This document shows positions 44,793-56,985 of a stretch of DNA of 64,000 nt, in pieces; position 1 is the stretch's first letter; every line of letters starts with the position of its first letter. Under the pieces are notes generated by a model, which searched no databases, had not been told where the DNA came from, and was given only the letters and a program-made list of their open reading frames with translations. Source of the stretch: Acetobacter cibinongensis (GTDB taxonomy: Bacteria; Pseudomonadota; Alphaproteobacteria; Acetobacterales; Acetobacteraceae); contig NZ_BAMV01000017.1 of NCBI RefSeq assembly GCF_000963925.1, positions 62,001-126,000 on the forward strand, read 5' to 3'. A program made the position numbers and the translations under genes.

Positions 44793-44850
44793 TCTTTGAA
44801 AAGATTGGTGGGCGCACAAGGGCTCGAACCTTGGACCCGCTGATTAAGAG
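44793..44850 (-). repeat. Remnant attachment repeat with tRNA-Lys 3' part
   Basis: 58 bp identical to 56897-56954, covering the CCA end, acceptor 3' strand, T arm and anticodon region of tRNA-Lys. The sequence after it does not continue the tRNA, so this is the displaced chromosomal 3' end and not a functional tRNA. Confidence 0.93.
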
Positions 44851-45179: not shown

Positions 45180-46511
45180 ATGAAGTTTACAAAGCCGGGA
45201 ATAGACGCCCTCACCTGCCCGCCGGGAAAGCGGGATGCCATGTTTACAGATAGCGAGGTGAAGGGCTTTGCCATTCGGGTAAACGCTACAGGCAGCAAAA
45301 CCTTCCTGTTTAACTACCGTTTTGCTGGTAAGCCTCGGCGGCTGGTGCTGGGGCAATACGGAGAACTGACGCTTGCTCATGCCCGCAAGCTAGCTGAGGC
45401 CGCACGGGGCAAGGTTTTGGCTGGGGGTGACCCAGCCGGAGAGAAAAAGGCCATAGCAGTCGCCCACCAGCAGCAGGCCATAGAGAACGCAAAGCAGGCC
45501 GCTGCCAATGCTTTGACCTTTGCCGCACTTACGGAGCGTTGGGCCAGCAATGCCCTCCGAGATAGTAGCGAGAGCCACAGCACAGAAGCGCCACGCCGCC
45601 TACGTTATAATTTTGCCGATATGCTAGACCGTCCAGCCCATGCCCTGACTGTGGCAGACATACAAAACCGGCTGGATGATGTGGCAGAAAACCACCCTAC
45701 CACTGCCCGCCGCCTGCAATCCTATGGCCGCGCCATGTATGCTTGGGCTGTTAAACGCCAGTTGCTGGAACACAACCCCTTTGCCCATGTGGTGATAGAA
45801 GGTCGGGAAGTATCGCGTAGCCGCGTTTTGACAGATGCAGAACTAGGTGCTGCATGGCGGGCGGCCTGCCAGATGCCCTACGCCTTTGGCCCGTTCTTTA
45901 AGCTGCTTATTCTAACCCTCCAGCGCCGGAGTGAGGTTGCTGGCATGAGGTGGAATGAAATAACGCCAGACCTGACCACATGGACCATTCCGGCCAGCCG
46001 CACCAAGAATGGCAAAGAACACATTGTGCACCTGTCTGACCCTGCACGACAGGTTCTTGCCTCTATGCACAGGCAGACAGATGCCAAAACCGGGGCGACC
46101 TCGCCTCTGGTCTTCACCAATACGGGCAGGACGCCAATATCTGGCTTTTCTGATGCCAAGGAACGGCTTGAAGCCCTCATGGCACAGGAGCAGGCTTCTC
46201 ATAGCTCCGGAGGGCAAAAAAAAGCGGGAAAAAAGCCCTCGGCCCTGCCAGTAAACGGGTGGCGGTTGCATGACCTGCGGCGCACGGGGGTCACCACAAT
46301 GGCCCGCTTAGGCATTGGCCCCCATGTGGCAGATAGAGTGCTGAACCATATAGAGGGCACCATAAGCGGCGTGGCCGCCGTGTATCAGCGCCATGAGTTT
46401 TTAACGGAGCGAGCCGCTGCGCTGGATGCGTGGGCAACGCATGTGCTGAATGTGGTTCCCGATGTGGGAATCGAACCCACGGCAGGAAATGTGGTGCTTC
46501 TGCGAAGGTAA
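45180..46511 (+). CDS. int: P4-type tyrosine integrase
   Basis: 443 residues. An N-terminal arm-binding DUF4102 domain (about 1-90), a core-binding domain (about 110-205) and a catalytic domain (about 215-410) are present. Catalytic residues seen are R249 (QRRSEVAGMRW), H364-x-x-R367 (LHDLRRTG), H390 and nucleophile Y402. The sequence after about residue 424 (VPDVGIEPTAG) is not family-like: it is read from a tRNA-like T arm on the opposite strand. It integrates the island at tRNA-Lys, and the promoter region is packed with repeats that probably autoregulate it. Confidence 0.95.
   Translation: MKFTKPGIDALTCPPGKRDAMFTDSEVKGFAIRVNATGSKTFLFNYRFAGKPRRLVLGQYGELTLAHARKLAEAARGKVLAGGDPAGEKKAIAVAHQQQAIENAKQAAANALTFAALTERWASNALRDSSESHSTEAPRRLRYNFADMLDRPAHALTVADIQNRLDDVAENHPTTARRLQSYGRAMYAWAVKRQLLEHNPFAHVVIEGREVSRSRVLTDAELGAAWRAACQMPYAFGPFFKLLILTLQRRSEVAGMRWNEITPDLTTWTIPASRTKNGKEHIVHLSDPARQVLASMHRQTDAKTGATSPLVFTNTGRTPISGFSDAKERLEALMAQEQASHSSGGQKKAGKKPSALPVNGWRLHDLRRTGVTTMARLGIGPHVADRVLNHIEGTISGVAAVYQRHEFLTERAAALDAWATHVLNVVPDVGIEPTAGNVVLLRR
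46453..46480 (-). other. tRNA-like 3' fragment overlapping the integrase C-terminus
   Basis: On the minus strand: T stem GTGGG, loop TTCGATT, CCCAC, then ATCGGGA, discriminator A and CCA. No matching 5' acceptor strand or D arm was found upstream, so it is not a complete tRNA. It encodes, on the other strand, the atypical last residues of the integrase. Confidence 0.55.
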
Positions 46512-46670: not shown

Positions 46671-47099
46671 TCAGACGTGTTTTGTCAATGAGAAAAGCCC
46701 TAATCCTGAGAGGATACACCGCCTTACGGTCGCAAGCTGTTCTGCGGAAAGGGTTTTCGTATAATAAATTCTTTTCCCATTCTGAGGGTTCCGACCGCCC
46801 CTAATCAGATCAAGGCGATGGAAGCCAACCGTCATAATCAGGTCAGCTTTCACCCAAACCTCCTGCTGGCTCCATGGGTCGGGTGGTGGAGGGTCTAGAT
46901 TCAGAAGGCAATGATATGGTCGCTTTGGGTCGGGTGGTGTCGTGCTTAGAGCCACAACAGTACATAGCCCGGGCCGCCATGATATTTGCGGGCTTACCAC
47001 TACCACTGGCCGCTTTTTAACCATTTCTGGCTCTTTAAAGCCTTCCCTAAAATCGCATAGCAATATCTGTCCAAGGCTTGGGCATTTCTCGATTGGCAT
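46671..47099 (-). CDS. PemK/MazF-like toxin (orphan)
   Basis: 142 residues with the MazF/PemK fold signature near the N-terminus: GQILLCDFREG, then KKRPVVVVSP, a central TTPPDPKRPYHCLL and KADLIMTVGFHRLDLI. Family members are ribosome-independent or -dependent mRNA endonucleases. The usual small antitoxin gene is missing: the 196 bp upstream contain no plausible ORF. It may be regulated by another island protein, be an addiction remnant, or act as stand-alone defence. Confidence 0.78.
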   Translation of the reverse strand: MPIEKCPSLGQILLCDFREGFKEPEMVKKRPVVVVSPQISWRPGLCTVVALSTTPPDPKRPYHCLLNLDPPPPDPWSQQEVWVKADLIMTVGFHRLDLIRGGRNPQNGKRIYYTKTLSAEQLATVRRCILSGLGLFSLTKHV

Positions 47100-47138
47100 A
47101 CCCTAATTATTTCCTTAAATTTTCGTGGCACAACATAA

Positions 47139-47162
47139 CGGAAAACATGGCAGCGTTTTCCG
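47139..47162. promoter_or_regulatory. Inverted repeat upstream of the PemK-like gene
   Basis: Perfect CGGAAAAC/GTTTTCCG arms with an 8-nt spacer, 40 bp upstream of the toxin start. A candidate operator; no binding protein can be named. Confidence 0.4.
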
Positions 47163-47295
47163 CTACGTCAACTGAATGGCGTTCGGTTTGGATACGCAAC
47201 GAGTTTGCAGGCGTAATTTTAAAGTAAACTCGATTCCGTATTTTACGCGACTCTTCTATCCCAAACAAAAATTAACACCTTATTTCAAAAATATA

Positions 47296-48225
47296 TCATT
47301 CCCTAGGAATAGGGCCAAAAACAATATTTCTTCCTTCCCCTCTTCTTTTTGATTTTATTTTTAAACATACTTCCAAATATTTAATGTAATTCAGTATGAA
47401 TAAAATAGAAACAATATGTTTTTTTGCTGAATTAAATTCGTAATTTCCTATCAATTTTCCAGAATGTGCAATGCTATCTCTTTGCCCCCATATTCTGGCC
47501 AAATTATTGATATGATATTGATCCAATTTTTTCGTTTTTGTTTTTGTACATATATCATCCATAAGAAATTTTAGCAGTTGTTTATCTTGGATGTTAGGAG
47601 GTCTTTGTATTTTAGCAGATTGCATAAAAAGTTTAATTCTAAGCTCAATAGAACAAACCGCAGGAATAATCATTTTTTTGTATTGCTTTTTATGGAAGTT
47701 TTCTAATGCTTCCATAAATTGGCTTTCAAAGGGATTTAAATCCTCTTCGTCATAGTAAACAAGATAAAATTGGCATAAATTATGAAGAACTCCTTGAGAG
47801 ATTTTTTCTTGAAGAGAGAACCCTATAATTCTTAATTGTGTTGTCTGAGAAAAATCCAAATTCCAATTGTTTTTTGATAATATTGCAGGAAAACAACTCC
47901 CAGTAGGTGTTGTAATAATCTGTATAATTTTTGATGTTTCTTTTATTCCGTACTTTTTCAAGTCTATGAGATTGATTTCTGCATTTGACACGTCTTCGCT
48001 AAAACATACAACTGAAAAGCCAAATCCGACAAAAATATTATTGAACAAAAAAATATTATTTGTATCCATACTTTGTAACAAATAATTTCTCACATCAATA
48101 TTACTATAACAGTAAAAACATATGTTTGCGTTCATGTTTTCTGTTGTTATGGCTGTATCTAAAGAATAAAGATGCTTATTACAAACAGGACAAAAAATAC
48201 CTGTATGTGGTAAAAAGTACTGCAT
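47296..48225 (-). CDS. Zinc-ribbon/HEPN-domain protein, putative defence RNase
   Basis: 309 residues, encoded by DNA far more AT-rich than anything around it, a sign of recent transfer. The N-terminus has a zinc ribbon (C12-x2-C15 ... C36-x2-C39). The middle is unrecognised. The all-helical C-terminal part carries R249-D-S-I-A-H254, matching the Rx4-6H catalytic motif of HEPN ribonucleases, followed by a hydrophobic helix and a basic tail. HEPN proteins often act in abortive infection and toxin systems. The location in the cargo zone of a satellite next to a toxin gene supports a phage-defence role (inference). Confidence 0.68.
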   Translation of the reverse strand: MQYFLPHTGIFCPVCNKHLYSLDTAITTENMNANICFYCYSNIDVRNYLLQSMDTNNIFLFNNIFVGFGFSVVCFSEDVSNAEINLIDLKKYGIKETSKIIQIITTPTGSCFPAILSKNNWNLDFSQTTQLRIIGFSLQEKISQGVLHNLCQFYLVYYDEEDLNPFESQFMEALENFHKKQYKKMIIPAVCSIELRIKLFMQSAKIQRPPNIQDKQLLKFLMDDICTKTKTKKLDQYHINNLARIWGQRDSIAHSGKLIGNYEFNSAKKHIVSILFILNYIKYLEVCLKIKSKRRGEGRNIVFGPIPRE

Positions 48226-48307: not shown

Positions 48308-48601
48308 TTATGTTGTGCTACGTTTTCGCAACCTTACCCCAGCTCCGCCCCCGTTTTCAGGAATGAACTCTACCCCAGCGCCCTCTAGAGCAGAACGGAT
48401 TGCTGCCAGATTGTTTGGGTAAGGATTACGCACACCACGCTCAAAATCTTTGACCGTATGCCTGGATACATTGGCCGCGTTAGATAGAGACTCTTGGCTC
48501 CATTCAATCAGGGCACGCGCAGCACGGCATTGAGCTGGGGTTAAAGCCAAATCTGACAAACTATAGCCTTTTTGGTTGATCTTGTGATTAAGTTCAACCA
48601 T
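48308..48601 (-). CDS. Xre-type helix-turn-helix regulator
   Basis: 97 residues. An HTH of the Cro/CI type lies at about 22-78 (LTPAQCRAARALIEWSQESL, then VSRHTVKDFERGVRNPYPNN), followed by a short basic tail. It is divergent from the early gene run with 96 bp between, the usual arrangement for a satellite or prophage repressor that keeps excision and replication genes off. A candidate operator lies at 48613-48628. Confidence 0.85.
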   Translation of the reverse strand: MVELNHKINQKGYSLSDLALTPAQCRAARALIEWSQESLSNAANVSRHTVKDFERGVRNPYPNNLAAIRSALEGAGVEFIPENGGGAGVRLRKRSTT

Positions 48602-48628: not shown

Positions 48629-48697
48629 CCGACCGAATGAAAAGCTTGCACCCTTTCCATCCGGCCTAACCGCAACCGCTCGCACTAGGAGACGGCA

Positions 48698-48925
48698 ATG
48701 GCTGAACACGCCTATACCATGCCCGGCATACGCTGGGCAGTGCTTACACATGCTCGCCTGAATGGTGACCTTTTGCCTGCCATTGCTGCGGCTGGCTTGC
48801 TCCTGCTGGCTGTGGCGGGCTTCCTGCACCCTGAACACCTGCACAGCCCCTCCGAAAGGCTGGTAGAGCACGCTCGCCACCACAACTCCCCTCATACCAT
48901 GCTGCTGTTGGAGGCTGTGCGATGA
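48698..48925 (+). CDS. Small membrane-segment protein, first gene of the island early run
   Basis: 75 residues with one hydrophobic segment (about 24-42, LLPAIAAAGLLLLAVAGFL) and a His-rich C-terminal part. An AGGAGA ribosome site precedes the ATG. No family recognised. The stop overlaps the next start by 4 bp. Confidence 0.6.
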   Translation: MAEHAYTMPGIRWAVLTHARLNGDLLPAIAAAGLLLLAVAGFLHPEHLHSPSERLVEHARHHNSPHTMLLLEAVR

Positions 48926-49161
48926 ACGCCCACACACACCCAGAAGCGGCTTATTTACTGGCATGGAATGCAACATATATCCGTCGGGCGACTGCCGTAG
49001 CTGATGCCCTTGCCCACTTTGTTGCGGATGGCGGCGGCACAACCCAAAGCGAAAATTCTGACATCGTGGCAGGAGGAATTACTTTCCTGTCGTCATACCT
49101 GGGGATGATTGCCACCGAAGCAGAGAGCAGTGCCGAAGCATTCAAAGGGAAGGCACAATGA
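48922..49161 (+). CDS. Small helical protein of unknown function
   Basis: 79 residues rich in Ala and mostly helical, with no signal or membrane helix. It overlaps both neighbours by 4 bp (ATGA), so it belongs to a tightly coupled translation unit. No family recognised. Confidence 0.58.
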   Translation: MNAHTHPEAAYLLAWNATYIRRATAVADALAHFVADGGGTTQSENSDIVAGGITFLSSYLGMIATEAESSAEAFKGKAQ

Positions 49162-49601
49162 ACCAGACCTCCTCACACAGCCCCGGTCTATCCCGCCGTG
49201 GTAACCTTGCCTCTGTGCTGGCCGCTGCGGCCGCCGCCATGCCCGTTATCGCCTCCGCCTCGCCTCATGCTCAGGATGCCGCCTTACTGGCAGTCTCTGA
49301 TGCATTCTGGCAGATCCATAATGAAATATGGTCTGCTGATTATCTGACAGAACACGAATACGGCTCCCCCGAACAAAAGACAGTAGAGGCCAAGCTAGAG
49401 CAGCTTTGCCAGCAGGAAGGTCTGCTTGTGAGGCAGCTTGCCCAAACCCCTGCCCGCACTCCGGCAGGCCTGAAAGCCAAGGCCACTATCCTGCAAAGCC
49501 TGCTGCCAGACATAATGCGGGATTGCTATTTGTCCGACGAGTCTGCCGAATTCCTATTGCTTATGAGCTTGCTGGCAGATGTGGCGGGGGGTGCAGCATG
49601 A
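49158..49601 (+). CDS. Tat-leader protein A of a paralogous pair
   Basis: 147 residues. The leader has the twin-arginine-type motif S-R-R-G-N-L-A (about 12-18), an alanine-rich hydrophobic core and a cleavage site near ASASP. The mature part is helical, about 110 residues. It aligns with the next gene product: both have DAALL after the leader, an E-A-K-(L/F)-(E/D) segment, a conserved G-x3-KAT-(I/V)-L stretch and an L-A-x-D-V near the end. Overlaps are 4 bp on both sides. Function is unknown, and exported proteins are unexpected in a replication module. Confidence 0.65.
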   Translation: MNQTSSHSPGLSRRGNLASVLAAAAAAMPVIASASPHAQDAALLAVSDAFWQIHNEIWSADYLTEHEYGSPEQKTVEAKLEQLCQQEGLLVRQLAQTPARTPAGLKAKATILQSLLPDIMRDCYLSDESAEFLLLMSLLADVAGGAA

Positions 49602-50026
49602 GCAAGCTCCCAATCTCACGCCGTGGCGTTCTTGCCTCGCCTCTGTTCGCTACGGCTGCTGCCGTGCCTGCTATCGCCGCCCCCAGCCCAGCCGAGGAGC
49701 CTGATGCCGCGTTGTTAGAGGCACTGGCACGTTATTGGCAGGCTGAAAGAGCCGTTCTGGCTATGGAAGCCGGTGTCGAGCCGCCTGCAACCTCTCCAGC
49801 ATATCCGGCATGGGAGGCCAAGTTTGATGCTTTAATCTCCCAACGCTCCAAGGCCATAGCCCAGATGGCAGACCTTCGCGCCATGACAGCTGAGGGCCAG
49901 CAGGGCAAAGCCACTGTGCTTGAACGTCACTTACCCCTGTGCTTGCGCTGGTATGATTGTGGCGACGACCCAGAGATAAAACTGGCCTTGTCTCTGGCGC
50001 GGGATGTGGGGAGGAATGCAGCATGA
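49598..50026 (+). CDS. Tat-leader protein B of a paralogous pair
   Basis: 142 residues from ATG 49598, which overlaps the previous stop (ATGA); a longer upstream frame would cover the previous gene. The leader contains S-R-R-G-V-L-A (about 7-13), an alanine-rich core and a cut site near IAAPSPA. The mature domain is similar to its neighbour but has diverged. Duplication inside the island is likely. No family recognised. Confidence 0.65.
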   Translation: MSKLPISRRGVLASPLFATAAAVPAIAAPSPAEEPDAALLEALARYWQAERAVLAMEAGVEPPATSPAYPAWEAKFDALISQRSKAIAQMADLRAMTAEGQQGKATVLERHLPLCLRWYDCGDDPEIKLALSLARDVGRNAA

Positions 50027-51467: not shown

Positions 51468-51773
51468 ATGCCTACAACGGCACATCATCAGACAGACAAA
51501 TCAGGGACAGCGTGCAGTATCACCCGCTTTCCTGCACAGCATCATAAAGAGGTTCCAATGCCTCTGGTTCTTTCAGAAGCCAAGGCTGCCGCATTGGTTA
51601 ACCTTGCCCCCCGCACCATGCAGGCAAAGCGATTAGACGGCACAGGACCTGCGTTCGTGCAGCTTACCAAGCGCCGTATTGGTTACAGTGTCGAGGCTCT
51701 CCGTGCATGGGTTGCCGCGCAGTCTTTCCAAAGCACAGCAGAAGCTTCTGTGAAAGCCAGAGGTGCAGCATGA
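51468..51773 (+). CDS. AlpA-like helix-turn-helix protein (possible excisionase)
   Basis: 101 residues from ATG 51468 (GGGAGA upstream) or 71 residues from ATG 51558 (AAGAGG upstream). The conserved part LVLSEAKAAALVNLAPRTMQAKRLDGTGPAFVQL is a MerR-like winged HTH of the AlpA/excisionase class, here quoted only as the segment AALVNLAPRTMQAKR. In P4-like elements AlpA activates int and aids excision. The stop overlaps the next start (ATGA). Confidence 0.75.
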   Translation: MPTTAHHQTDKSGTACSITRFPAQHHKEVPMPLVLSEAKAAALVNLAPRTMQAKRLDGTGPAFVQLTKRRIGYSVEALRAWVAAQSFQSTAEASVKARGAA

Positions 51774-52378
51774 CAAACCGTGAAAGTTACGTCTACGGCC
51801 TTTCAATGCTAACGCCATACCAGATGCAAAAAGCCAGCGAGCATTATGAAATGACGCCGTGTGAATGGCTTTGGCAAGAATACAACTCTACTGGCCCCAA
51901 CATGCTGAGTAGGTTCGTAACCCTATGCTACGGGCTGGGTGAATACATGAAAGAGAGTCTCTTTCAGGCAGAGATGGATGAAGCCTTGCGCCTTTATGGT
52001 CGCACAGACTTTAACCCTGTTCCGTCTCAGGCCGCCCTTGTCGGTATGGCACTCATGTGGGCAAGTCTTGAAAATGTATTAGATGCTGATGCCTCTTTCC
52101 GTGCCCTTACAGACATTGAAGATAGGCCGCTTAATGCGTCTGTAATGTTTATTTCTATGCGGGCAACATTAATTTTATTGCGTCGTGATATTCACAAAAA
52201 TCCCAAGGCGTCTGAGTTCTGGTATTGGCTGTGCCGCGTGGGCTGGGATGAAATATTGACTCTTGCCGAGCAAAGAGACCATGCCGCTCTGGAAATGATA
52301 GCCGGTCGTGCTTTTTGTGAACCGGAGGGATGTATTGCCGTGCTTCCTCCCGATTGGTCCATCCATGCGGCGGCATAG
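51770..52378 (+). CDS. Unknown 202-residue island protein
   Basis: Starts at ATG 51770, overlapping the AlpA-like stop. All-helical with several Trp and Met residues and no signal peptide. It ends 14 bp inside the primase gene, so it is part of the same coupled unit. No family recognised. Confidence 0.62.
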   Translation: MTNRESYVYGLSMLTPYQMQKASEHYEMTPCEWLWQEYNSTGPNMLSRFVTLCYGLGEYMKESLFQAEMDEALRLYGRTDFNPVPSQAALVGMALMWASLENVLDADASFRALTDIEDRPLNASVMFISMRATLILLRRDIHKNPKASEFWYWLCRVGWDEILTLAEQRDHAALEMIAGRAFCEPEGCIAVLPPDWSIHAAA

Positions 52379-53432
52379 CGCCTCAGAACTGGCCCGGCTT
52401 CTAGCTGACAGCATTACCCGCCTTGCGCCTGAACTTCTGCCACACGGTAAGAAAGACAGTTCAGAGTGGAGGGTTGGCAGTCTGGCCGGAGAGCCGGGAC
52501 AGTCCCTTGCTGTGCGTCTATCCGGCGCACGGCGGGGCGTATGGGCTGACTTCTCAAGCGGTGAGCGTGGCGATGCTCTGGACCTTGTGGCTTCCTGCCT
52601 ATTTGGGGGTGACCGCAAGCAGGCTATGGCTTGGGCAGCAAATTGGCTGGGACTGAGTGAGACCACCAGCACTATGCCCGTCCAGCGCCGCCCGGTTCAA
52701 GAAAAACCGTCAAACTCTGAGGAACTTGACCGAGAGGCGCAACAGCGGAGGGCAAAGGCCCGCCGCTTGTGGCATGACGCCCCTGCCGGGATAGCTGGCA
52801 CACCAGTAGAGGCATATCTGCAAGGCCGGGGAATAGACCTACGGGCTTTAGGTCGTGCTCCGGGTGCCTTGCGTTTTGCCAATGCTGTCTGGTGTCAGGA
52901 AGTACATCGTCCCCTGCCCGCCATGTTGGCTGCTATCTGTTCGCCTAGCGGCAAGCTTGTCGCTGTGCATCGCACATGGCTGGCGCAATCGCCCTCCGGC
53001 GTGTGGGCCAAAGCTGACCTTAAAAACCCCAAGAAGGTGCTGGGTAGTTTTGCAGGCGGCTGCATTCGCCTATGGCGTGGGGCCTCTGGCTTGGCTCTTG
53101 GCATGGCTCCGCAAAATGAAATGGCTATTGTAGCGGAGGGGATAGAAACCGCCCTTTCCTGCGCTATAGCCTGCCCAGAGCACCGCGTATTGGCCGCCGT
53201 GAGCCTCAGCAATATGGCAAGCCTAAAACTGCCAGACACCATCACAGAGATTCTCGTTGCAGCAGATAACGACACCGGCAATCCCTCCGCACGGAAGGCG
53301 CTGGATGCTGCACTCTCACAATTCGCACAGCAGGGCCGCACTGTTCGGCTCGCCATGCCAGAAATACAGGGACGGGACTGGAATAATGTCCTGACACAAC
53401 ATGACGAACACAAAGGGCCAGAACGGCCTTAA
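52365..53432 (+). CDS. Toprim-domain primase of the island
   Basis: 355 residues. An N-terminal region with a WADFSSGERGDALDLV segment, as in CHC2-associated phage primases, lacks an obvious zinc cluster. A DUF7146-like middle (about 120-190) precedes a C-terminal Toprim domain with VAEGIETALS (catalytic Glu) and ILVAADNDTGNP (DxD). It makes RNA primers for element replication and pairs with the DUF927 ATPase downstream, as in many satellite elements. It overlaps the next gene by 32 bp. Confidence 0.85.
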   Translation: MRRHSASELARLLADSITRLAPELLPHGKKDSSEWRVGSLAGEPGQSLAVRLSGARRGVWADFSSGERGDALDLVASCLFGGDRKQAMAWAANWLGLSETTSTMPVQRRPVQEKPSNSEELDREAQQRRAKARRLWHDAPAGIAGTPVEAYLQGRGIDLRALGRAPGALRFANAVWCQEVHRPLPAMLAAICSPSGKLVAVHRTWLAQSPSGVWAKADLKNPKKVLGSFAGGCIRLWRGASGLALGMAPQNEMAIVAEGIETALSCAIACPEHRVLAAVSLSNMASLKLPDTITEILVAADNDTGNPSARKALDAALSQFAQQGRTVRLAMPEIQGRDWNNVLTQHDEHKGPERP

Positions 53433-55317
53433 TGCCGTGAGAGACGGGCTTAACGCCGCCAAGGTTGTACCAATGCCCGGTGCAAAGACAAAACAGAAAA
53501 CCGCAAACCAGCGTATAGACTCACCCTGTGGCCGGTTCTTCTGTGATGCACACGGGCTATTCCGCAAGGCAGCGGATAACTCCAAAACAGATATGAAGCT
53601 TTCTGGTCCCGTCTGGATACTTGCCGAGACACGCGGGGCAGATGGTAAAGGCTGGGGCATATTGCTGGCATGGACAGACCGAGACGGGCAACAACATGAA
53701 CAAGCCTTTCCTCGTGCCATGTTTTGCGGAGATTGTGCCGAACTGCGGAGCCAGTTGGCAGACGGTGGCTTAACCTTACAGGCTGGCCCCGCCGCTAAAG
53801 CCGCGTTTGCAGATTGGCTTTCTTCCATTTCCAGTCAGGACAGGGCGCTTTCAGTCAACCGTATAGGCTGGCACACCCTAAACGGAGGGCTGGCCTATGT
53901 GCTGCCTGACGCCACCTACGGCAACCTGAAAGAGAGGGTTGTGCTGCAAACAACCGAACAGGAAGCCAGCCTGTTTGGTATTTCCGGCACCACAGAAGAA
54001 TGGCAGCGTCATATCGGGCAATTCTGTAAAGGAAACTCTCGGCTTGTTCTGGCTGCCTCTACTGGCTTTGCTGCTCCACTTTTAGGGGCATTAGGGCTAG
54101 ATGGCGGCGGTGTTTCGTTTGTGGGGGCTTCTCGTGCTGGTAAGTCTACCGCGTTGCTGCTTGCCTCTAGTGTATGTGGTGGCACTCCGGAAGCCGGGGC
54201 CAAAGGTTATGCCCGCTCTTGGCGCTCTACCTCTAACGGACTGGAAAGCGTGGCGCTGGCAAGCTGTGACAGTCTTTTGCCTATGGATGAAATTGGCCAG
54301 CTAGACCCAAAGGAAATTGGTGATGTGGCCTACATGCTCGCCAACGGCCAAGGCAAGGTGCGTGCCAGCAGGACAGGCAGTGCCCGTGCCACGACACGTT
54401 GGCGTGTCCTGTTTCTCTCTACTGGCGAAAAGACGCTTGATGACCTGAATAAGGAAGTCGGCAGGACAACAAAAGCAGGGCAGGAAGTTCGCTTTGTGGA
54501 TGTCCCTGCCGATGCCGGGCAAGGCATGGGGCTTTTTGAAAATATCCACCACCATGACAGCCCCGGTGAGTTTGCCGATTATCTGGGTACTGTCTGCGGG
54601 CAGTATTACGGCGCACCCCTCCGAACCTTTTTAGCCAGTCTCTCCCAGCGTATGGAGGCTGAGGGCATCAAGCCATTTCGTGAGGCACTCCTAGAGCGGT
54701 TAGAAGTCATAGCCACAGGCTATCTCCAAAACTGGCCTAGTGCCTCCGGTCAAGTTCGTTCCGTTTCCCGGCGCTTTGCCATGATTGCACTTGCTGGGGA
54801 ATTAGCCACCAGCTTTGGCCTGACAGGTTGGGACAACGACACCGCAGAAGTCTTGGTTGGTATGGCCTTTGGTGACTGGCTTCGTGCGCGTGGCACAGCA
54901 GGCCGGAGGGAAGATGAACAAGCCTTACAGCAGCTCAGAGACTTCATTGCTCGCAATGCCTCTGCCCGCTTTGAAGATTGGGTGGATAAAACAGCGGAGG
55001 AACTGCCTCAGAGTGGTGAGGAAGGCAAACCACCAGCAGAACGCTACCGCACACAAAACCGCGCTGGTTGGCGTTATTGGGTGAAGGCGCCAGATGGGCG
55101 GTATGTTTGGCGCTATCTCCTGACTTCTGCTGGCATGAATGAAGCTCTGAATGGCCTAAACATAAGGGATGCCAAGCGAGTGCTGGTAGAACGCGGCCTG
55201 CTCATTCCTGCCAAGGATGGAAAACTTTCGGAAAGCCTGCGCCCACCTGGCCAAGGTCTGGTGAGACTCTACCAAGTGCATCATGACATTCTGGCTGTTG
55301 CCACCGGTGACAGGTAG
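53401..55317 (+). CDS. DUF927 helicase-like ATPase
   Basis: 638 residues. DUF927 domain (about 55-330) with Walker A GASRAGKST (242-250) and Walker B LLPMDEIG (Asp296-Glu297). A downstream Arg-finger-like ANGQGKVRASR segment and a winged-helix-like C-terminus follow. Proteins of this family act as replicative helicases in plasmids, prophages and satellites. With the primase it forms the island replication module. Confidence 0.87.
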   Translation: MTNTKGQNGLNAVRDGLNAAKVVPMPGAKTKQKTANQRIDSPCGRFFCDAHGLFRKAADNSKTDMKLSGPVWILAETRGADGKGWGILLAWTDRDGQQHEQAFPRAMFCGDCAELRSQLADGGLTLQAGPAAKAAFADWLSSISSQDRALSVNRIGWHTLNGGLAYVLPDATYGNLKERVVLQTTEQEASLFGISGTTEEWQRHIGQFCKGNSRLVLAASTGFAAPLLGALGLDGGGVSFVGASRAGKSTALLLASSVCGGTPEAGAKGYARSWRSTSNGLESVALASCDSLLPMDEIGQLDPKEIGDVAYMLANGQGKVRASRTGSARATTRWRVLFLSTGEKTLDDLNKEVGRTTKAGQEVRFVDVPADAGQGMGLFENIHHHDSPGEFADYLGTVCGQYYGAPLRTFLASLSQRMEAEGIKPFREALLERLEVIATGYLQNWPSASGQVRSVSRRFAMIALAGELATSFGLTGWDNDTAEVLVGMAFGDWLRARGTAGRREDEQALQQLRDFIARNASARFEDWVDKTAEELPQSGEEGKPPAERYRTQNRAGWRYWVKAPDGRYVWRYLLTSAGMNEALNGLNIRDAKRVLVERGLLIPAKDGKLSESLRPPGQGLVRLYQVHHDILAVATGDR

Positions 55318-55540: not shown

Positions 55541-56110
55541 ATGAAAATTGGATACGCACGGACTAGCACCACCGATCAGGTGGCTGGCCTTGAAGCACAA
55601 GCCCGTGACCTGTCAGCCAATGGGTGTGAACGTATCTTCCGTGAACAGGTGAGCGGTAGCAGCACGGACCGACCTCAGTTGAGTGCGGCGTTCGATCACA
55701 TGCGGGCCGGTGATGTGCTGGTAGTGACCAAGCCAGACAGGCTGGCCCGTTCCACTGCGGACCTGCTGCGACTTGTAGAAGAGGTCAAGGCAAAGGGTTG
55801 CGGCCTGATCGTGCTATCCATGAATGGCATGACGCTGGATACCACAAGCCCCACCAGCAAGATGATGCTGACCATGCTCGCCGCTGTCGCTGAGTTTGAG
55901 CGTGATATTATGAAAGAGCGGCAACGAGAAGGCATCACCAAAGCCAAAGCAGAGGGGCGCTATAAAGGGCGCAAGCCTACAGCACGAGGTCAGGCCGAGC
56001 AGGTGCAAGCACTGGCGGCTCAGGGTGTGAATGCTACGGAGATAGCCAAGCGTCTGGGCATTGGCCGGACCTCTGTTTATCGCTGTCTGGCGGCTTCTGC
56101 TTCGTCCTGA
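55541..56110 (+). CDS. Serine recombinase, resolvase type
   Basis: 189 residues. The catalytic domain starts MKIGYARTSTTDQ with nucleophile Ser9, the conserved R in PDRLARS and the E-helix FERDIMKERQREGI. A C-terminal HTH reads VNATEIAKRLGIGRTSVYRCL. Size and layout match Tn3-type resolvases and Hin-type invertases. Being behind a res-like array, it probably resolves multimers of the excised, replicating circle. Confidence 0.92.
   Translation: MKIGYARTSTTDQVAGLEAQARDLSANGCERIFREQVSGSSTDRPQLSAAFDHMRAGDVLVVTKPDRLARSTADLLRLVEEVKAKGCGLIVLSMNGMTLDTTSPTSKMMLTMLAAVAEFERDIMKERQREGITKAKAEGRYKGRKPTARGQAEQVQALAAQGVNATEIAKRLGIGRTSVYRCLAASASS

Positions 56111-56896: not shown

Positions 56897-56985
<89 letters not shown>

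Follow-up and report, generated by a model that had tools for sequence, protein, structure and literature searches.

Paired genes encoding small proteins with Tat-like leaders beside the repressor gene of an integrative island in Acetobacter cibinongensis

Two adjacent small genes of Acetobacter cibinongensis, A and B, are best read from sequence comparisons as members of an unnamed family of immunity-module proteins carried by phages and integrative islands. By analogy with known exclusion systems, the role that we favor for this pair, with a probability of about 0.4, is that of immunity-module proteins sent to the periplasm by the Tat system, most likely for superinfection exclusion. The analysis covers a window of 64 kb, i.e. 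the whole stretch of DNA under study, in which gene A (49158..49601, forward strand, 147 aa; Tat-like leader followed by a predicted four-helix-bundle domain) precedes its paralogue B (49598..50026, forward strand, 142 aa). The initial annotation had pointed out, in the interval 49158-50026, two related small ORFs with S-R-R-G leaders and 4-bp overlaps, located between repressor and replication genes. All these observations hold: A and B are found there and share 39% identity (E 1.6e-16), both leader motifs are seen in the sequence, the row includes four 4-bp overlaps (48922/48925, 49158/49161, 49598/49601 and 50023/50026), and the pair is flanked by an Xre-type repressor gene on one side and by excisionase-like, primase and DUF927 genes on the other.

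The pair belongs to an element of ~12.1 kb found at a tRNA-Lys gene and bounded by 58-bp direct repeats: attL (44793..44850), which contains part of tRNA-Lys, and the identical attR (56897..56954), which overlaps tRNA-Lys(ctt) (56910-56985). A tyrosine integrase gene (45180..46511, forward strand) is followed by a cargo gene encoding a PemK/MazF-like protein (46671..47099, reverse strand). No antitoxin was noticed for this cargo gene, which adjoins a gene for an uncharacterized 309-aa protein, and the stretch that they occupy (46671-48225) looks AT-rich by eye. The gene of the Xre-type repressor (48308..48601, reverse strand; HTH_3, with the motif GAGVRLRK near the C-terminus) is divergent from a forward row that successively includes sm75, sm79, A, B, P5, the AlpA-like gene, u202 and the primase, DUF927 and resolvase genes. 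In the gap between repressor gene and operon, one imperfect 12-bp inverted repeat beginning at 48633 has two mismatches and was not used as an operator; no promoter-like site above chance was found in this gap.

The first gene of the operon, sm75 (48698..48925, forward strand), encodes a protein with one likely membrane span according to hydropathy. It was found in 10 of the 10 Acetobacter islands, all of which have a row headed by a likely single-span protein. The tail of sm75 is His-rich in about half of the islands and the one likely membrane span is kept. The second gene, sm79 (48922..49161, forward strand), encodes another small protein; at a distinct locus (L139:6231-6614), sm75-like and sm79-like parts seem, by eye, to be joined in one protein. 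Behind B, the 437-aa product of P5 (50023..51336, forward strand) has no match in Pfam, NCBIfam or PHROGs, nor in phages by tblastn. Relatives of P5 located behind B or its counterpart (L081, L082, L084 and L086) have in common their N-terminal ~50-60 residues, followed by divergent sequences, and L080, L083 and L085 carry a different gene in this position, which points to a variable slot behind the pair. The rest of the row, on the same strand, encodes (i) an AlpA/excisionase-like protein (51558..51773; HTH_17 below its cut-off; phrog_66), (ii) u202 (51770..52378), found by tblastn in seven of the nine other Acetobacter islands, (iii) a primase (52365..53432; DUF7146 and Toprim_3; phrog_510), (iv) a DUF927 protein (53401..55317; phrog_1139, primase) and (v) a serine resolvase (55541..56110). 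Compared with the resolvase of this island, those of L054-L057 are 91-96% identical and those of L058-L061 about 56%, a contrast that the neighboring DUF927 proteins (72-82% throughout) do not follow.

No capsid, portal or terminase family was detected by Pfam among the 14 island products; therefore, the island resembles a satellite or an integrative element of a related kind, an assignment that is plausible from gene content. It has the features of PICI-like or P4-like satellites, i.e. an integrase, att repeats at a tRNA gene, a divergent repressor, a primase and no recognized structural genes, but differs from them in that no packaging or capsid-size genes were recognized in it. The term "satellite" used in the initial annotation thus agrees with the integrase, the 58-bp att repeats, the primase and the Pfam results on capsid and terminase genes, but is kept here as a descriptive label only.

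A search for the same pair in other acetobacterial islands found it in nine other Acetobacter genomes, in which the island recurs with A plus a second family gene behind A; furthermore, a similar island of another genus (L023) carries two leader genes. The tRNA-Lys(ctt) gene lies near the resolvase end in eight of these nine islands, and the contig carrying the ninth (L063) ends before it. Two draft genomes have a frameshift in one member of the pair, B in L056 (8125-8568) and A in L063 (7398-7844); sequencing error and decay are indistinguishable in these cases. In a domain tree, in which starred groups alone were used owing to its few columns and many open forks, the first genes constitute one starred clade (10 rows, from 10/10 Acetobacter islands). 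Five islands have a second gene of type B (four of these genes in a starred clade, that of L057 outside), and the five others have one of a third type, which constitutes one starred clade. Since the first gene forms a single clade and the second is one of two types, a recent tandem duplication in each island was rejected; this pattern indicates that two genes were kept and that the second partner was exchanged. The duplication proposed in the initial annotation is therefore retained as paralogy of A and B, but not as a fresh event in each island.

The family is not restricted to the island. The genome of A. cibinongensis carries five copies, A and B plus three on a 40.8-kb contig, C77. With B as query, matches were found in 14 of 49 genomes of the genus and in nine of 200 genomes of a sample of the taxonomic family, its own genome being counted in both cases and two of the latter (G081 and G186) being unconfirmed by the domain profile. 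A ten-row profile matched at least eight of 385 genomes of a sample of the class (own genome counted, ten candidates scored per genome, G521 unconfirmed), and a relative from another genus used as query matched 29 of 299 genomes of the taxonomic family (own genome counted, G104 unconfirmed). Among all collected loci, a profile of the mature part identified 84 distinct ORF rows with 89 domain sequences; L013, L016, L006, L076 and L123, absent from these rows, were dropped. Gene A itself was confirmed in seven of 87 stretches, from A. persici, A. indonesiensis, A. lovaniensis, A. papayae, A. orleanensis, A. okinawensis and A. suratthaniensis. One relative matched by its C-terminal part (L092:1407-1886) is leaderless and belongs to a locus with 40% GC, near a DUF927 gene, in a member of the taxonomic family whose genome has TatC.

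Neither A nor B was assigned to any family by Pfam or PADLOC. For A, PHROGs gave one unnamed family only (E 0.45), and the sole NCBIfam hits, SLATT_4 (E 0.092) and an aminotransferase model (E 0.1), were far below cut-off. Searches by tblastn gave no match for A in phages, for B in phages and plasmids, for two relatives in phages and for one in plasmids. No hit was confirmed in scans of viral contigs with B, A or an alignment of A, and a scan of IMG/VR with a C77 copy as query retrieved five loci.

The mature part of both proteins is predicted to be a four-helix bundle. In the model of B, helices span residues 37-58, 69-92, 98-118 and 125-141, with block pLDDT of 96-98 over residues 41-110 and pLDDT under 50 at residues 1-31. 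In that of A, they span residues 41-61, 71-96, 102-122 and 130-144, and an extra helix (13-26) lies in a low-confidence part, pLDDT being low across most of residues 1-35. When the B model was used as query, the best Foldseek E values were 0.75 in PDB and 0.24 in BFVD, and the best VIA-align match (Z 9.2, 4.6 Å over 101 residues) may reflect the common bundle arrangement only. No family assignment was drawn from the fold, the B model having no match beyond this common bundle. Both putative mature proteins are acidic (pI 4.5 and 4.8), and their highest hydropathy over 19 residues is 1.45 for A and 0.55 for B.

The leaders of A and B are Tat-like, and export itself is predicted. That of A (49158..49259, forward strand) includes S12-R13-R14-G15, an Ala-rich hydrophobic run and a possible AxA cleavage site after residue 34, and that of B (49598..49678, forward strand) includes S7-R8-R9-G10 and a possible AxA cleavage site after residue 27, both cleavage sites being proposed by eye. 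The N-terminal Tat motif consists of S/T-R-R-x-hydrophobic and a subsequent uncharged stretch of mild hydrophobicity. We applied our own TATFIND-like rule, which requires RR and, no more than a few residues away, a run of 13 or more uncharged residues whose mean hydropathy is >0.5. Both A and B satisfy this rule. In all, it is passed by 53 of the 75 distinct family ORFs, which include many close relatives and thus do not represent 75 independent cases, versus 19 of 597 further ORFs from these loci. One duplicate ORF had been dropped beforehand. Family ORFs and controls were cut in slightly different ways: 62 residues before the domain plus 6 for the former, and for the latter the N-terminal 68 residues, counted from the longest start, of ORFs picked on composition and not shorter than 90 aa. 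Only 2.6% of composition shuffles pass the rule, and replacement of RR by KR, RK or KK in the rule leaves 0, 1 and 0 passing ORFs, respectively. Among the 53 passing ORFs, the residue before RR is S in 26 and T in 10, RR is spelled by 12 codon pairs, and an AxA-like pattern, a loose one, is present in all. RR is retained even though overall identity to B or to another member drops to about 17-38%. The first ORF of L025 passes the rule yet does not look signal-like by eye. TatC is encoded by the host (contig C110, E 1.5e-69) and by six of the six other genomes checked.

The 22 family ORFs that fail the rule are heterogeneous. By eye, seven carry an RR leader whose run is interrupted by a charge (the second ORF of L028, B of L054, both ORFs of L087, L088 and both ORFs of L089), two come from the frameshifted drafts (B of L056 and A of L063), L144 is hydrophobic without RR, and others are ambiguous or maybe broken (the third ORF of L025, the first of L133, the fourth of L141 and the second of L142 and of L143). 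The remaining ones look leaderless by eye (two ORFs of L030, L134, L136, L138, L139 and L092). Among the five loci with two-domain chains (L030, L136, L138, L139 and L141), the rule is passed by L141 only (4/5 fail). Leaderless relatives, of which those of L030 and L139 keep the same place beside Xre, suggest that the domain may act inside the cell in some lineages. The Tat leader put forward in the initial annotation thus finds support in its retention by most relatives and in the host TatC, but homologues lacking the leader, named there as a refuting observation, do exist as a minority. Within Acetobacter, dN/dS of leader and body are 0.41 and 0.29 for A, 0.35 and 0.23 for B, and 0.41 and 0.41 for the third type; both parts evolve under purifying selection, which is no stronger on the leader than on the body. 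The RR codons are invariant in this genus (CGC CGT in 9/9 A and 4/4 B, CGC CGC in 5/5 genes of the third type); therefore, a codon test there is mute on selection at the protein level, and it is in the wider set that these codons vary.

The neighborhood of the family was surveyed at 51 places in 50 longer stretches, with place lists assigned by hand. A divergent small repressor gene is found at 36 of them, Xre at 23 (ten being versions of this Acetobacter island) and ribbon-helix-helix (RHH) at 13, and neither type at the other 15; since both repressor profiles were seeded with neighbors of the family, they favor such neighbors. These profiles gave eight further matches in all that DNA, and the sole match of the Xre profile in the window is the neighbor of the A/B pair. 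Because the longest open frames were taken, some repressor ORFs run into the family frame; L021, cut at the edge of its stretch, was replaced by L022, which carries the same gene, and the two RHH genes of L020 were counted from coordinates and confirmed as L145 and L149. Pairs or two-domain chains occur at 25 of the 51 places. Pairs are present at 19 of 23 Xre places versus two of 13 RHH places (Fisher p 0.0002); once near relatives are collapsed by hand, these counts become 10 of 14 and two of seven (p 0.16), and the association of pairs with Xre and of single genes with RHH is only a trend.

A gene encoding a BRO-N-like antirepressor lies directly behind the family gene at seven of the eight Acetobacter RHH places (L020 twice, L022 by eye, L062, L064, L066 and L067; L068 gave a weak match only), and L026, from another genus, gave the same result. 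Pfam recovered BRO-N at the three places tested and ANT also at two of them. In L088, which represents a different taxonomic family of the class, a Rha/ANT gene is located upstream of the family gene. Where other genera were inspected, genes of different, unnamed kinds occupy the position behind, and no antirepressor was recognized behind B in the window. For 94 neighboring proteins scanned as one set, chosen by hand from 318 candidates plus a few beyond that list and counted as totals only, the matches were six for integrase, five for Bro-N, four for ANT, three for HTH_17, two for Rha, two for terminase and one for capsid.

The contig C77 carries terminase, portal, capsid and tape-measure genes and is a prophage. 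Three separate cassettes were observed in it (L020:7775-9189, L020:18408-19871, and L021:19394-19600 with L022:1574-2700), each made of an RHH repressor gene, a leader protein gene and a BRO-N-like gene. One of the C77 cassettes sits between the portal and capsid genes. An IMG/VR contig as long as C77 matches one C77 copy at 100%. At the five IMG/VR loci, of which three are C77 itself, a divergent RHH gene is always present and a BRO-N-like gene lies behind at four, the fifth being at a contig edge; beyond C77, these counts are two of two for RHH and one of one for BRO-N. Taken together, these neighborhoods suggest that the family is carried in or near an immunity region, the adjacent repressors presumably governing immunity.

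According to the exclusion model, A and B would be made when the repressor loosens, i.e. upon entry, upon induction or at a low level in the carrier. They would fold, then pass via Tat into the periplasm with cleavage of their leaders, and would act there, perhaps as an A-B complex, the family also including two-domain single chains. They would bind, in the periplasm or at the inner membrane, a part of the DNA-delivery machinery of the incoming phage, and this binding would stop the entry of the rival phage, in analogy with SieA of the immI region of P22 and with Ltp. Targets would differ between paralogues and between exchanged second partners.

The pair could thus work like the exclusion gene of immI (mnt, arc, ant, sieA), a parallel drawn by analogy. 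C77 and its relatives resemble this region by an RHH repressor gene divergent from a row containing an antirepressor gene and, in the C77 cassettes, by a gene whose product is envelope-directed according to its leader; one cassette lies among head genes, and immI is described as located inside the late operon of P22 (PMC8022706). However, the envelope gene comes first in this family and has a Tat-like leader, and the window copy is associated with Xre, not RHH, and with no recognized antirepressor. Therefore, the prophage copies are closer to immI than the window, which cannot be equated with an immI cassette. Another parallel is Ltp of the Streptococcus phage TP-J34, which has two helical repeats. 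It is described as exported and encoded in the lysogeny module, with repeat domains that target the tape measure protein and account for exclusion (PMC3952083), a likeness that holds by description; it differs from A and B, which are two proteins with Tat-like leaders, in that it is a single-chain lipoprotein of Gram-positive hosts. Glo of the Vibrio phage K139, presented as a soluble periplasmic exception among exclusion proteins (PMC3952083; also named in PMC4870250), is similar by description alone, as a soluble periplasmic phage protein linked to exclusion. The main text of a survey of Tat in alphaproteobacteria (PMC3305326) contains no word beginning with "phage". A literature search that left most subscription papers outside found no paper linking twin-arginine, prophage and superinfection exclusion, nor, by title, any paper on the A/B family, which is weak evidence of absence.

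The exclusion reading, already suggested in the initial annotation and still the best-supported guess, draws on the RR-specific leader, the host TatC, the four-helix models, the divergent repressors and the BRO-N neighbors, as well as on the C77 cassette among head genes, the pairs and two-domain chains, the single-span protein heading the row and the parallel with Ltp. Against it count the lack of a usable family or fold match, the leaderless relatives (some of them beside Xre), the fusions that fail the rule, the dN/dS of the leaders, the 15 of 51 places without either repressor and the seeding of the profiles with neighbors. Furthermore, production of an exclusion protein would be late should the divergent row be silent in the carrier. 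An envelope "moron", i.e. a periplasmic protein altering the host envelope or carrier fitness and not directed at phages, would also agree with the five copies in the genome and with the leader and the likely single-span product of this row, which point to the envelope; we consider this somewhat unlikely, since the gene adjoins a repressor gene at 36 of 51 places, not a cargo site. A control of lysis or of its timing from the periplasm appears highly improbable, even though the T4 antiholin RI provides a model as a periplasmic phage protein believed to sense superinfection (PMC8385771): no lysis gene was recognized by Pfam among the 14 island products, and the family adjoins repressors.

Other explanations place the function of the domain partly or wholly in the cytoplasm. 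The helical domain might act there on the repressor or antirepressor until Tat export removes it, so that the immunity switch would report Tat function or membrane energy, working like FlgM, which is removed by secretion. The genes adjoin repressors belonging to two unrelated folds, and those of C77 and its relatives immediately precede the antirepressor gene; this is consistent with such an export-coupled switch, as is the place next to Xre kept by the leaderless L030 and L139. However, the leaders of most relatives still satisfy the rule, contact with the repressor is only hypothetical and we know of no precedent for Tat in this role, which makes it rather improbable. We would likewise give little credit to a part in the lysogeny switch in which A and B, as helical proteins exported by Tat, partner the repressor or antirepressor, while membrane energy or Tat capacity serves the prophage or island as an alarm; the leaderless and fused relatives would then be cytoplasm-locked versions, and both compartments might matter. 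Finally, the leaders may no longer work, A and B being cytoplasmic helpers of early replication or regulation. The position before replication genes, the leaderless relatives and a leader dN/dS above that of the body for A and B (equal for the third type) argue for this reading, but the retention of RR at about 17-38% identity, the single pass obtained with KR, RK and KK and the AxA-like site in 53/53 passing ORFs (a loose pattern) make it unlikely.

Overall, this work delineates an unnamed family located beside repressors in islands and prophages of Acetobacter and other alphaproteobacteria, i.e. in two settings with unrelated repressors, most of its members carrying a Tat-like leader. If the pair is exported, its immunity module would work on both sides of the membrane. 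These proposals are directly testable in culturable vinegar bacteria, thanks to the fold, the leader and the existence of natural leaderless relatives.
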